DNA from: Gammaproteobacteria bacterium RIFOXYD12_FULL_61_37
Lineage (GTDB): Bacteria > Pseudomonadota > Gammaproteobacteria > Chromatiales > Chromatiaceae
Assembly (NCBI GenBank): GCA_001801995.1
Contig: MGZB01000001.1
Coordinates: 124,001 to 188,000 of the forward strand
Direction: 5' to 3'
Length of the DNA stretch: 64,000 nucleotides
Shown: one piece after another, positions 46,115 through 52,050 of the stretch
Position numbering within the stretch: the stretch's first letter is position 1
Layout of the letters: each line of letters begins with the position of its first letter
Made by a program: the position numbers and the translations under genes
Notes under the pieces: generated by a model
Seen by the model: the letters and a program-made list of their open reading frames with translations, nothing else
Database searches by the model: none
Told to the model about the DNA's origin: nothing

Positions 46115-46471
46115 ATGCATCCTGAATATGCCCCCATCTTCGATGTCCATCTGGAGCAATTCGAGCAAGAGGTCATCCAGGCCTCGCACCAGATCCCTGT
46201 CTTAGTCGATTTCTGGGCCGATTGGTGCAGCCCCTGCCTCGCCCTGGCGCCAATCATGGAGCGGGTGATGACCGGTTATGCCGGCCGGGTCCGTCTGGCC
46301 AAGCTGGAGGTGGACGAGGGGGAAAACATGAAACTGGCAGGCCGTTATCGGGTCAGGGGTTTCCCCACCGTGGTGCTCTTCGTCAGGGGCGAGGAGGTGG
46401 CGCGTTTCGCCAGCGCCAAGCCCAGGCACTGGATCGAGGAGTTTCTCGATCAGCACCTGCCTGGGGAATGA
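46115..46471 (+). CDS. Thioredoxin
   Basis: A 118-residue thioredoxin-fold protein with the active site W37-C38-S-P-C41 (Ser replacing the usual Gly) and the cis-proline loop GFPTVVLF. No signal peptide is seen, so it is cytoplasmic. Divergent from hemB by 96 bases and convergent with ppnP. The altered dipeptide between the cysteines (SP) may change its redox potential. TrxA itself may be encoded elsewhere; it could instead be a chaperedoxin-like or specialised thioredoxin. Confidence 0.9.
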   Translation: MHPEYAPIFDVHLEQFEQEVIQASHQIPVLVDFWADWCSPCLALAPIMERVMTGYAGRVRLAKLEVDEGENMKLAGRYRVRGFPTVVLFVRGEEVARFASAKPRHWIEEFLDQHLPGE

Positions 46472-46824: not shown

Positions 46825-49077
46825 TTATTGAACGGCCTTTTGGGCGTGGTTGTTGAATTCCTCTGCCTTCAGATAGCCCATGACACGGAAGTTCTTCCGC
46901 TCCTGGCCGTCGGCGCCAAAGAAGAGGATGGCGGGCGGCGCCGGGATCTGAAAGTGGCCGAGCAGCGCCTTGTCCTGCTCGTCGTTGGCGGTGACATCCG
47001 CCTGGAGCAGGACGAGCCCGGTGAGGCTGGCCTGGACCTTGGGGTCGGTGAAGACATACTTCTCGAACTGAACACAGTAGGTACACCAAGTGGCATAGAA
47101 GTCGAGCATGACCGGCTTGCCCTGTCGGCTGGCCAAGGCGAGCTCCCGGTTCAGATCGTCGATGGTCTTGATGCGCTTGAAGCGGGCCTCGGCCGACTGA
47201 GTAGCGCCATTTGCGGTACCGGAGGAGAGGCCTCGCAGGGGTTGCAGGCTATCCTTGCCACCGGCGGCGACGCCTACCAGCATCAACGCGCCGTAAATCA
47301 GGGCGGCCAGGCCCAGGCCCTTCCACAGCTTGCGCCAGCCGGAGACAGCCTCCGGCAGCAGGGAGAGGGCGCCCATGTAAACCCCTGAGCAGATCAGCAG
47401 CAGCCCCCAGAGCAGCATGGCGAACACGGGGGGGAGGATGCGTTCCAGCAAGAGAATGGCGACGGCCAGCATCAGCACGCCGAAGACGGCCTTTACGGCC
47501 TCCATCCAGTGCCCCGCTTTGGGGAGCAGCTTACCCGCGCCGGCGCCCAGGACGATCAAGGGCGCGCCCATGCCCATGCCCATGGCGAACAGCGCCAGTC
47601 CACCCAGCAGGGCATCGCCAGTCTGGCCGATATAGATCAGCGCACCGGCCAGTGGAGGGGCGACGCAGGGGCCGACGATGAGGGCGGAGAGGAAGCCCAT
47701 GACGGCTACGCCGGTGTAAGTGCCTCCCTTTTGTTGATGGCTGACCCTACCGATCTGTCCTTGCAGGGCTTTGGGCAGTTGCATGTCGTAGAAACCGAAC
47801 ATGGAAAGGGCCAACAGGACGAAGATCAAAGCAAAGGCGCTTAGTATCCAGGGGTTCTGAAAAGCGATTTGGAGGTTCTCACCGAACAGGCCGGCCAAGA
47901 CGCCGGCAAGGGTATAAGTGGCGGCCATGGCCAGCACATAGACAAATGAGAGCAGGGTGCCCCTGAGTGGGGTGAGTCTGGTTCCGTGGCCGGCAATGAT
48001 GCCGGAGAGGATGGGGATCATGGGAAAGACACAGGGGGTGAGGGCAAGCAGCAGGCCGACCCCGAAGAAGCTGACGAGAATCAGCCAAATGTTGCCGCCC
48101 TTCAGGAGATCGGCGATCTGGTCCTGCTCGGCGGTTGGTTCCTGTTGTGGAAGGGGCTTTGCCAGTGGACCGGCGGCGGCCGCGAGGGCAGGCAGGTCGA
48201 GGCTCAGCTCTTTCCGTTGTGGCGGGTAGCAGACCCCAATCTCGGCGCAGCCCTGATAGGCGACATTCAGGCTGATCTTGGTAGCAGCATTGTTGGTGCG
48301 TTGCAGGGGGATGGTTAGGTCGATCTCTTCCGTATAGACCGCCAAGTCACCCTCGCTGCCATCGGGGCGGATGGCGTTCTGTTTGATCTTGGGCTTCGGC
48401 ATTTGGTAGGTCCCCAAGGCGACGCCATCGGCCTGCTTGAGCGTTACCTTGATCTGCTCCTGATAGAGGTAGGTCCCTTCGGCAATCTGCCAAAAGAGCC
48501 TGATGCCGTCCCCCGGGGGCTCCACCGAAGCACTGAGCTTGAAGGCCTCCTCGACCGGCAGGATGTCCCCCTCAACGCCGCCGCTACCTATGGGTTTCAA
48601 CGAAACAGGAAGGGCTGTCCCGGCAATGGGGGGCAAGTTCAAAGAAAGGGTCTGGGTATGGGGTGGGTAGCAGAGGCCCGCATCGGCGCAGCCCTGGGAC
48701 TTAACGATCAAATTGAAGGCCGTCTGGGAGGGGTCCTTCCGGAGGAGAGGAAGGTCGATGGACAGCATGTCCCGGTAGATCTCCACGTTCCCGAAGAACT
48801 GGTCTTGCTTGGTTTCGGCCGGGGGTAGCCGTACCCCGCCAGCCTCGATGCCAGGGGTGCCGGAACGGACGCTGATCTTGTCCTTGTAGAGGTAGTAGCC
48901 TTCAGCGATCCGCCACTCTACGCGCACAGTTTCCTTGTCCAGGACGCTTCCCGATATAGGGTATGCCTCATCGGGGCGAAGGAAATTTTCTTCCGCTCGC
49001 GGGGTCTGGGCTGCAAGGAGCAGCAGTAAAAGTGCGAAGAGCCGGCCTAGCTTGAAATTGTGCATTGTTCGACCCAT
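46825..49077 (-). CDS. dsbD: Thiol:disulfide interchange protein DsbD with duplicated N-terminal domain
   Basis: A 750-residue protein carrying electrons from cytoplasmic thioredoxin to periplasmic thiols. A signal peptide is at about 1-28. Two tandem N-terminal DsbD-alpha domains follow, each with a YLY-type cap region and the reactive CxxxxxC pair: C130/C136 (GCADAGLCYPP) and C277/C283 (GCAEIGVCYPP). The transmembrane domain keeps both cysteines, C349 (LTPCVFPM) and C471 (VGPCVAPP), and the C-terminal thioredoxin domain has C665-T-Y-C668. The usual length is about 560-600. The 5' end overlaps cutA by 31 bases; an alternative start is 49065. Confidence 0.95.
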   Translation of the reverse strand: MGRTMHNFKLGRLFALLLLLLAAQTPRAEENFLRPDEAYPISGSVLDKETVRVEWRIAEGYYLYKDKISVRSGTPGIEAGGVRLPPAETKQDQFFGNVEIYRDMLSIDLPLLRKDPSQTAFNLIVKSQGCADAGLCYPPHTQTLSLNLPPIAGTALPVSLKPIGSGGVEGDILPVEEAFKLSASVEPPGDGIRLFWQIAEGTYLYQEQIKVTLKQADGVALGTYQMPKPKIKQNAIRPDGSEGDLAVYTEEIDLTIPLQRTNNAATKISLNVAYQGCAEIGVCYPPQRKELSLDLPALAAAAGPLAKPLPQQEPTAEQDQIADLLKGGNIWLILVSFFGVGLLLALTPCVFPMIPILSGIIAGHGTRLTPLRGTLLSFVYVLAMAATYTLAGVLAGLFGENLQIAFQNPWILSAFALIFVLLALSMFGFYDMQLPKALQGQIGRVSHQQKGGTYTGVAVMGFLSALIVGPCVAPPLAGALIYIGQTGDALLGGLALFAMGMGMGAPLIVLGAGAGKLLPKAGHWMEAVKAVFGVLMLAVAILLLERILPPVFAMLLWGLLLICSGVYMGALSLLPEAVSGWRKLWKGLGLAALIYGALMLVGVAAGGKDSLQPLRGLSSGTANGATQSAEARFKRIKTIDDLNRELALASRQGKPVMLDFYATWCTYCVQFEKYVFTDPKVQASLTGLVLLQADVTANDEQDKALLGHFQIPAPPAILFFGADGQERKNFRVMGYLKAEEFNNHAQKAVQ

Positions 49078-49370
49078 TCAAGGTATGGTTGATGGCCCTG
49101 TTCCACCCCAAGGGCGATGACCTCGGGCACATCGTAAGGATGCAGCGCCACAAGCGCTTGCTGAAGTTCGTCGAGCCGGGAGCGGCTGGTCTTGATCAGC
49201 AGCAGGGTCTCTTGGGACCGCTCGATTTTTCCCTGCCAGCGATAGATCGAGGTAATGCCGGGAAGGACATTGACACAGGCGGCAAGCCCGGCATCAACGA
49301 GTCTGACGGCGATCTCCTCGGCGGTCTCTCGGTCCGGGCAGGTGCATAGGACGAGGTTTATTGTTGTCAT
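49047..49370 (-). CDS. cutA: CutA divalent-cation tolerance protein
   Basis: A 107-residue trimeric ferredoxin-like protein of the CutA1 family. Motifs: VLCTCPDRETAEEIA, LVDAGLAACVNVLPGITSIYRWQGKIE (positions about 25-51) and TLLLIKTSRSR with HPYDVPEVIAL. Its role in copper tolerance in E. coli is disputed. The frame extends much farther upstream, but the ATG at 49370 starts the family domain and leaves the divergent fxsA promoter region free. It overlaps dsbD, a frequent neighbour in gammaproteobacteria. Confidence 0.95.
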   Translation of the reverse strand: MTTINLVLCTCPDRETAEEIAVRLVDAGLAACVNVLPGITSIYRWQGKIERSQETLLLIKTSRSRLDELQQALVALHPYDVPEVIALGVEQGHQPYLEWVEQCTISS

Positions 49371-49445
49371 AGACGCCCTAAGATAGTTGAAGATCTCCTC
49401 CGGCGTAAAGCCATCCAACCTAGCTGATTTTATAAGGTGTTTGCC

Positions 49446-49904
49446 GTGAATCCCCTGTTGTTGTTCTTGATGCTGCTCATCGGCCTCCCCTTGCTGGAGC
49501 TTTATTTGTTGATCGAAGTGGGTTCCGCCATCGGCGCACTTCCCACTATTCTGCTGTCGCTCTTCACCGCTGTGCTGGGCGGGTTGCTGATGCGGTGGCA
49601 AGGGGTGTCCACGGCGTTGCGGGCGCGGGCGGCCATGGAGCGGGGCGAGGTCCCCGCCTTGGAGATGCTGGAGGGTGCGATGGTCTTTCTGGCCGGGCTC
49701 GCCTTGTTTCTGCCCGGTTTTTTCACCGACGCCCTGGGGCTCCTCGTGCTGATTCCTCCCTTGCGCCGGTTGGTGCTGCTCCGCTTCCTCAAGCGCGCCG
49801 GGGTGATGCGTCCGACGGGTTCCATGGGGCCTGGCCAAGGCCGATCCGCGATCTGCATCGAGGGCGAATGGCGGCGTGATGACGAGGGACGCGGCGGTTC
49901 CTGA
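49446..49904 (+). CDS. fxsA: FxsA cytoplasmic membrane protein
   Basis: A 152-residue protein with three or four hydrophobic segments in the first 110 residues and a charged tail. FxsA-family landmarks are LIGLPLLELYLLIEVGSAIG, TAVLGGLLMRWQG, GAMVFLAGLALFLPGF with TDALGLLVLIPP. The family can relieve phage T7 exclusion by the F plasmid in E. coli; the normal role is unknown. GTG at 49446 is chosen because an AAGG ribosome site lies 8 bases upstream; GTG at 49437 is the alternative. It commonly precedes groES. Confidence 0.9.
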   Translation: MNPLLLFLMLLIGLPLLELYLLIEVGSAIGALPTILLSLFTAVLGGLLMRWQGVSTALRARAAMERGEVPALEMLEGAMVFLAGLALFLPGFFTDALGLLVLIPPLRRLVLLRFLKRAGVMRPTGSMGPGQGRSAICIEGEWRRDDEGRGGS

Positions 49905-50054: not shown

Positions 50055-50345
50055 ATGAAAATCCGTCCTCTGCACGACCGTGTGGTCATCCGCCGCATGG
50101 AAGAAGAAACCACCACCGCCGGCGGCATCGTCCTGCCCGGTGCCGCCGCCGAAAAGCCCATGCAGGGCGAAGTGCTGGCTGTCGGCAACGGCAAATCCCT
50201 GGATAACGGCCAAGTCCGCCCCCTTGAAGTCAAGGTTGGCGACAAGGTGCTGTTCGGCAAGTACTCCGGCACCGAAGTCAAGATCGACGGCGATGAGCTG
50301 CTGGTGATGCGCGAAGAAGACATCATGGGTGTGGTCGAGAAATAA
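50055..50345 (+). CDS. groES: Co-chaperonin GroES
   Basis: A 96-residue Hsp10 that caps the GroEL ring. The full family pattern is present: [29 protein letters not shown] (positions 3-31, with the mobile loop), [26 protein letters not shown] and [15 protein letters not shown]. An AAGGAG ribosome site lies 9 bases before the ATG. groEL follows at 64 bases. Confidence 0.98.
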
Positions 50346-50379
50346 CCGGCCTGTCCGCTCAATCGAACGGCTTACGTAA

Positions 50380-52050
<1,671 letters not shown>

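Follow-up and report, generated by a model that had tools for sequence, protein, structure and literature searches.

The stretch of DNA analysed in this study, referred to as the window, comprises 64,000 nucleotides and contains a dsbD gene on its minus strand. The open reading frame encodes 750 amino acids, and its product scored 707.3 bits with the NCBIfam model for DsbD (PRK00293), whose cut-off is 330. The features of the gene and its conserved neighbours are listed below.

46825..49077, minus strand: dsbD, encoding a tandem-alpha DsbD of 750 amino acids (open reading frame, Pfam and NCBIfam PRK00293)
48994..49077, minus strand: putative signal peptide, residues 1-28 (appearance of the sequence; helix at residues 3-22 in the model)
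48631..48987, minus strand: alpha1, the first DsbD_N copy, residues 31-149, with C130/C136 and a cap loop of the ordinary kind (DQFFG, residues 92-96; Pfam, alignment)
48190..48567, minus strand: alpha2, the second DsbD_N copy, residues 171-296, with C277/C283 (Pfam, alignment, structure match)
48343..48390, minus strand: enlarged cap-loop region of alpha2, residues 230-245, a predicted hairpin (alignment, models)
47434..48090, minus strand: DsbD_TM membrane domain, residues 330-548, with C349 and C471 (Pfam)
46828..47196, minus strand: gamma thioredoxin domain, residues 628-750, WCTYC, with C665/C668 (Pfam, structure match)
49047..49370, minus strand: cutA, read from its first ATG, overlapping the start of dsbD by 31 bases
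49437..49904, plus strand: fxsA, a conserved neighbour
50055..52050, plus strand: groES (50055-50345) and groEL (50410-52050), conserved neighbours

The arrangement of genes around dsbD resembles that of E. coli K-12, where cutA and dsbD likewise overlap (by 25 bases, compared with 31 in the window) and share one strand, with fxsA, groES and groEL on the other. The E. coli locus differs in that a few further genes lie in between. Because cutA-dsbD is found near fxsA and groESL in the same order of neighbours as in E. coli K-12, we regard the window gene as the orthologous dsbD and not as a paralogue. A small thioredoxin gene (46115-46471, plus strand; WCSPC, no evident signal peptide) lies close to dsbD on the opposite strand, separated from it by one gene whose product is weakly nucleoside phosphorylase-like. 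This thioredoxin is a possible cytosolic electron donor for the window DsbD.

The 750-residue protein contained two matches to the alpha domain family DsbD_N (PF11412), scoring 102.3 and 90.7 bits at a cut-off of 25, both within one stop-free frame. They were followed by DsbD_TM (residues 330-548) and Thioredoxin_7 (residues 640-721), the order expected of a DsbD. Its cysteines are located at positions 130, 136, 277, 283, 349, 471, 563, 665 and 668, and provide a pair for each alpha (C130/C136 and C277/C283), for the membrane domain (C349/C471) and for gamma (C665/C668). C277, C283, C349, C471, C665 and C668 were invariant in the 15 proteins of alignment A2. This alignment was preferred because lone alphas, added to enrich the full-length alignment at alpha1, aligned to alpha2 instead. 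The two alphas of the window protein are 36% identical (45 of 126 columns). The protein is a DsbD ortholog with two complete alpha domains ahead of normal membrane and thioredoxin domains. The initial annotation had described just such a layout, two successive DsbD-alpha units with their own cysteine pairs in an otherwise normal DsbD, and Pfam and the cysteine positions agree with it. The checks it had proposed, a count of PF11412 copies and a fold prediction, point the same way: in addition to the two matches here, two alphas were found in most genomes of the family (see below), and the full-length AlphaFold2 model draws both units as beta domains.

The DsbD of E. coli (dsbD, b4136) shares the domain order that follows the N-terminus, and its C103/C109 pair aligns with the alpha pairs of the window protein. 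The gamma domain of the latter is 52 to 54% identical to E. coli gamma structures. The two proteins differ at the N-terminus, where E. coli DsbD has one alpha and the window DsbD has two, the second with an enlarged cap loop (16 residues, compared with 11).

The occurrence of the tandem layout was evaluated in the window's family (f1) and in its class. In a sample of 34 f1 genomes, including the window's own, only G014, which is 40% complete, yielded no match. Two alphas in one frame were present in 30 of the 33 genomes with a match and one alpha in the remaining three; the tandem call for G015 comes from a gene that runs off the end of its contig. Five of the 30 tandem genomes are assemblies of one or two contigs. 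The second genome of the same genus (G001) had the same tandem layout, the best tblastn segment being 79% identical. Two further f1 genomes, G258 and G401, appeared in a search of 370 genomes of the class with two matches each, among the matches listed.

The count for the class was taken from an even sample of 140 genomes rather than from the 370-genome search. A search with a tandem profile gave matches in 127 of them, and 52 of these 127 carried tandem DsbD; 48 matched nearly the whole profile, and four (G071, G141, G163 and G166) were judged by hand. Reading of the genes in 121 genomes gave 52 tandem proteins from 49 families and 69 single ones from 65 families, in agreement with the profile calls. 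Six genomes called single (G090, G109, G110, G130, G165 and G167), in which alpha and membrane domain were unreadable in one frame, were left out of the tree and the domain counts and kept among the 75 singles of the gene-count tests. No family in the class sample contained both architectures. Other classes gave nine matches in a phylum sample of 299 genomes, of which the best eight candidates per genome were scored, and none of the nine spanned both alphas. Any impression that the tandem is rare is contradicted by these 52 of 127 genomes. The tandem-alpha layout is an old one and is widespread within a single large class of bacteria.

Mobile elements and the literature were searched as well. 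No relative was found among the viral contigs searched. In the plasmid search, 104 of 1925 records covered at least 80% of the query in one place; among the 30 matches listed, the annotated features were named dsbD or protein-disulfide reductase. A search of the open-access PMC literature, by titles and the starts of abstracts, found no paper about a tandem-alpha DsbD. In Burkholderia sp. SRS-46 (L050:5908-6363), a frame of 152 residues consists of an alpha alone, with no membrane-domain match in the frame, and represents either a free-standing or a truncated alpha.

To describe how the two alphas are related, a tree was made from 119 domains (31 single, 44 alpha1 and 44 alpha2), leaving out L001, which is a copy of L002, and L027, which is cut. 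In this first alpha tree, 16 of 20 f1 alpha1 domains fell into one supported (starred) set and 19 of 20 f1 alpha2 domains into another, and most of the deeper forks were unresolved. Profiles for the two positions, built without the family under test, placed 95 of the 104 alphas of the class sample correctly and misassigned nine; in a smaller set, 46 of 48 were placed correctly. Since the position profiles separate alpha1 from alpha2 in this way, the split looks ancient. The two copies within one protein were 26 to 62% identical in the class sample (median, 39%). The initial annotation had proposed an old duplication rather than a recent repeat or a misassembly, and this is borne out by the position-specific split and by the wide occurrence in family and class. 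In one protein (L031), both copies were adjacent in the alpha tree on a starred branch, which may reflect a second duplication or a conversion.

Single alphas generally resembled alpha2. Of the 69 in the class sample, 58 gave the better score with the alpha2 profile, 42 of these with a margin above 5 bits, and six favoured the alpha1 profile by more than 5 bits; in the smaller set, 32 of 34 scored better with alpha2. Single alphas in G112 (L144) and G082 (L150) scored 18 and 20 bits higher, respectively, with the alpha1 profile and may be instances where alpha1 was retained instead of alpha2; G112 belongs to family f80, where L055 and L079 are tandem. The existence of these few alpha1-like singles suggests that either type is able to serve alone.

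In f1, all three single alphas were of the alpha2 type (157 to 180 bits, compared with 96 to 113 with the alpha1 profile), and the proteins were nested at three places among the tandems in the membrane-domain tree. The starred set that contained L082 had five members and the one with L081 fourteen, and L083 stood in a set with 92% support, in a quick tree whose stars are less trustworthy. From this combination of type and position, alpha1 appears to have been lost in f1 at least twice, and probably three times, with alpha2 apparently kept. Loss of DsbC (PF10411) or CcmG was considered as a reason and rejected, as all three genomes retain DsbC-like matches and DsbE/CcmG-like matches above the cut-off; alpha2 alone presumably serves those partners there. 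Outside f1, similarity alone would fit either a loss of alpha1 or an ancestral single state. Because tandem and single forms are intermingled on the trees (25 changes over 121 rows), we take this difference to be an architectural variant inside the DsbD family and not a defining feature.

The cysteine pair equivalent to C103/C109 of E. coli was conserved throughout: in the class sample it was present in 52 of 52 alpha1, 52 of 52 alpha2 and 69 of 69 single domains, and in f1 in 29 of 29 alpha1, 29 of 29 alpha2 and all three singles. In E. coli, a cap loop shields the active-site thiols, with F70 and Y71 being important, and among 134 sequences the share with F or Y is 53% at position 70 and 85% at position 71, according to the excerpted text of PMC7347389. 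All 29 f1 alpha1 domains had a cap loop of ordinary length (11 residues, equivalent to E. coli 64-74) with an aromatic residue. The loop of f1 alpha2 comprised 16 residues in 26 of 29 proteins, 15 in two and 11 in one, and the aligned 68-72 stretch lacked an aromatic residue in 24 of 29, although the placing of the extra residues depends on the aligner and calls at positions 70 and 71 are uncertain at the residue level. The three f1 singles also had a 16-residue loop, and the aromatic was absent from the aligned 68-72 stretch. In f1, the enlarged loop was thus confined to domains of the alpha2 type. Across the class sample, 44 of 52 alpha2 loops were of ordinary length; the other eight were two from f1 with 16 residues, one in G150 with a similar loop of 15, and five with 12 or 13.

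This enlargement is also reflected in the structure models. When alpha2 was modelled alone (mean pLDDT, 88.3), the cap region formed a longer hairpin, and in the full-length AlphaFold2 model the cap strands covered residues 230-236 and 242-248. The full-length model had a pTM of 0.40 and was uninformative on the docking of the domains. The alpha2 model matched solved DsbD-alpha structures of E. coli and Neisseria, all of which are single alpha domains, with Z scores of 12.6 to 16.3. Matches in Foldseek and VIA beyond DsbD and ScsB, such as adaptin ears and adhesins, were read as the common Ig-like arrangement. The enlarged loop may alter the gating of alpha2. The f1 alpha2 loop represents naturally occurring variation in the cap loop, to which the excerpted account of PMC7347389 gives a presumed role in guarding the reduced thiols.

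The nearest described system is ScsB of Proteus mirabilis (PDB 6c29, N-terminal periplasmic domain), a member of the DsbD superfamily, the N-terminal region of which is reportedly a tandem immunoglobulin-fold domain, in the words of a 2018 title by Furlong in J Biol Chem; by that title it would have two Ig-like N-terminal domains. The alpha2 model of the window protein aligned to 6c29 over 112 residues with a Z score of 10.4 and an rmsd of 2.8. A search with the tandem profile A5 did not find 6c29 at an E value of 1 or less. One protein, L206, matched 6c29 by sequence (E value, 7.6e-9), and L207 was similar to L206. In both, only the first unit had a DsbD_N match and a cysteine pair, and the stretch from the first alpha to the membrane domain had neither a cysteine nor a DsbD_N match. 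The window DsbD differs from this ScsB-type arrangement, as read from L206 and L207, in that both of its units carry a cysteine pair. DsbD with two fully equipped alphas is a variant within DsbD that is found in many genomes.

It should be noted that the window's genome contains a second thiol-redox cluster outside the window (L205; G000:C1:308500-316500). It includes a Thioredox_DsbH (DUF255) protein that carries a third DsbD_N domain and whose gene is broken by a stretch of N. Nearby are genes for a CcdA-like DsbD_TM protein, a thioredoxin, a DSBA-like protein, a sigma-70-family factor and a SoxA/TsdA-type cytochrome c. The same-genus counterpart of this protein (L208) is one frame of 887 residues with the order Thioredox_DsbH-DsbD_N. 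It resembles the window DsbD in carrying DsbD_N and differs from it in having one alpha match. No Pfam membrane domain was found in the pieces of the L208-type protein from the window's genome. The cluster looks like a split DsbD.

In addition to the domains themselves, the numbers of client-like genes were compared between tandem and single genomes of the class sample. Matches to the DsbE model TIGR00385, which also picks up TlpA/ResA-like proteins and was counted with weak matches included and without an export-signal filter, had a median of 9.5 in the 52 tandem and 5 in the 75 single genomes (p 1e-12). A few genomes held more candidates than were scored, and a difference as large arose in none of 5000 size-stratified shuffles. 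The values for cytochrome c (PF00034) were 19 and 10 (p 8e-9), counts that saturate because at most 34 candidates per genome were scored and many genomes had more. Glutaredoxin, the control, gave counts of 6 and 3 (p 9e-6). In a joint logistic model with four predictors, only the DsbE/TlpA count stood out (z 3.9), the other values being 1.3 for cytochrome c, 0.3 for glutaredoxin and -0.1 for genome size.

The comparison was repeated with control for relatedness, using a weakly supported tree of the DsbD membrane domain with a midpoint root and capped long branches. Regression on this tree gave p values of 2e-9 for DsbE/TlpA, 2e-5 for cytochrome c and 0.027 for glutaredoxin. The best tree allowed 25 independent pairs of tandem and single proteins. 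The DsbE/TlpA-like count was higher in the tandem member of about 21 pairs (sign p 0.0003) and the cytochrome c count in that of about 20 (p 0.0015), and for glutaredoxin the split was about 12 to 8 in favour of the tandem member (p 0.48). Restricting the comparison to starred branches left four independent pairs (three in an earlier run), too few for significance. Within f1, the 30 tandem genomes averaged 8.4 TIGR00385 matches, compared with 7, 6 and 5 in the three singles (one-sided p 0.02). For a subset of 24 tandem genomes, leaving out five that were less than 88% complete and also G015 (89%), which that limit would have kept, the average was 8.8 (p 0.009), and p was likewise 0.009 when G015 was added back to give 25. 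Since the tandem form is accompanied by higher counts of cytochrome c and, more weakly in the tree regression, of the glutaredoxin control, more than one of these traits could be driven by lifestyle. DsbE/TlpA-like matches were also observed next to dsbD, at a distance of roughly 1.4 to 1.8 kb from the alpha matches, in five genomes (G006:C123, G002:C258, G038:C121, G048:C40 and G054:C26), four of them tandem and one single, and the proteins they encode are candidate dedicated clients.

DsbD is a membrane protein that moves reducing power out of the cell interior to the envelope, and in E. coli DsbD electrons pass from cytosolic thioredoxin to the membrane domain and on to gamma. The reading we lean towards, if only slightly, is that the tandem stems from an ancient duplication of the N-terminal reductase domain within Gammaproteobacteria, and that alpha2 would be the ordinary outlet of the protein and alpha1 an added, parallel one that widens the range of DsbD clients. 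The upstream flow would be as in E. coli, and gamma would then reduce either alpha. Alpha2, which adjoins the membrane domain, would be the counterpart of the ordinary single alpha, and alpha1 would raise the number or the range of periplasmic clients with a thioredoxin fold (DsbE/TlpA-like). In f1 the outlets would have diverged further, alpha1 keeping the ordinary aromatic cap and alpha2 acquiring a longer cap region. What we infer is a parallel flow, different clients and an altered gating of alpha2. Different periplasmic partners for the two alphas are plausible in view of the larger number of DsbE/TlpA-like matches that accompany tandem DsbD and of the remodelled cap loop of alpha2. A more specific version, a branched DsbD that would divide electrons between its domains, in which alpha1 with its conventional cap feeds the DsbE/TlpA-like pool and alpha2, re-gated in f1 by its enlarged and mostly non-aromatic cap hairpin, feeds DsbC and CcmG, is offered tentatively and is on balance doubtful.

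Several other explanations have to be weighed against parallel outlets. The two alphas could be interchangeable and simply double the local capacity for the same output. The cysteine pairs kept in both copies, the apparent ability of either type to stand alone, and a larger complement of client-like proteins and cytochromes c would all fit such an increase in dosage. However, alpha1 and alpha2 keep their position-specific sequence across 49 families, and the enlarged loop of f1 is confined to alpha2; interchangeable copies are unlikely to keep such differences, which argues against pure dosage and makes it an unlikely account. An assembly or annotation artefact has next to no probability, given the same architecture in 30 of 33 f1 genomes, five of them in one- or two-contig assemblies, and in 52 of 127 genomes of the class. 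That alpha1 is mainly a spacer or docking module with incidental redox activity would agree with its apparent loss two or three times in f1, but the cysteine pair is present in all 52 alpha1 copies of the class sample and all 29 of f1, and alpha1 has the more ordinary cap loop of the two; we consider this very improbable.

The initial annotation had also raised the possibility that electrons pass through the two domains in series. Such a relay would run from gamma to alpha2, then to alpha1 and on to the partners. The order of domains from the membrane outward is that of such a relay, and the longer cap region of alpha2 could suit an unusual partner. This proposal is nevertheless disfavoured, since natural DsbDs exist with an alpha2-like domain alone and, in a few cases, with an alpha1-like domain alone. 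Gamma, DsbC, DsbG and CcmG are all thioredoxin-fold proteins, and we know of no alpha-to-alpha exchange, which argues further against a relay. These four are the partners of alpha named in the excerpted text of PMC7347389, which does not name another Ig-fold alpha among them. Taken with the single-type proteins, this makes a series relay rather improbable, and parallel outlets stay the preferred reading.

Gammaproteobacteria is the class of E. coli, and for the question of how DsbD selects among its partners, the natural series of tandem, alpha2-like-only and alpha1-like-only DsbDs that is common in this class represents ready-made separation-of-function variants. These findings suggest that the architecture of DsbD may be tied to how many thioredoxin-like proteins the periplasm holds, and that with a second alpha a single reductant pump can probably serve a wider range of envelope proteins.
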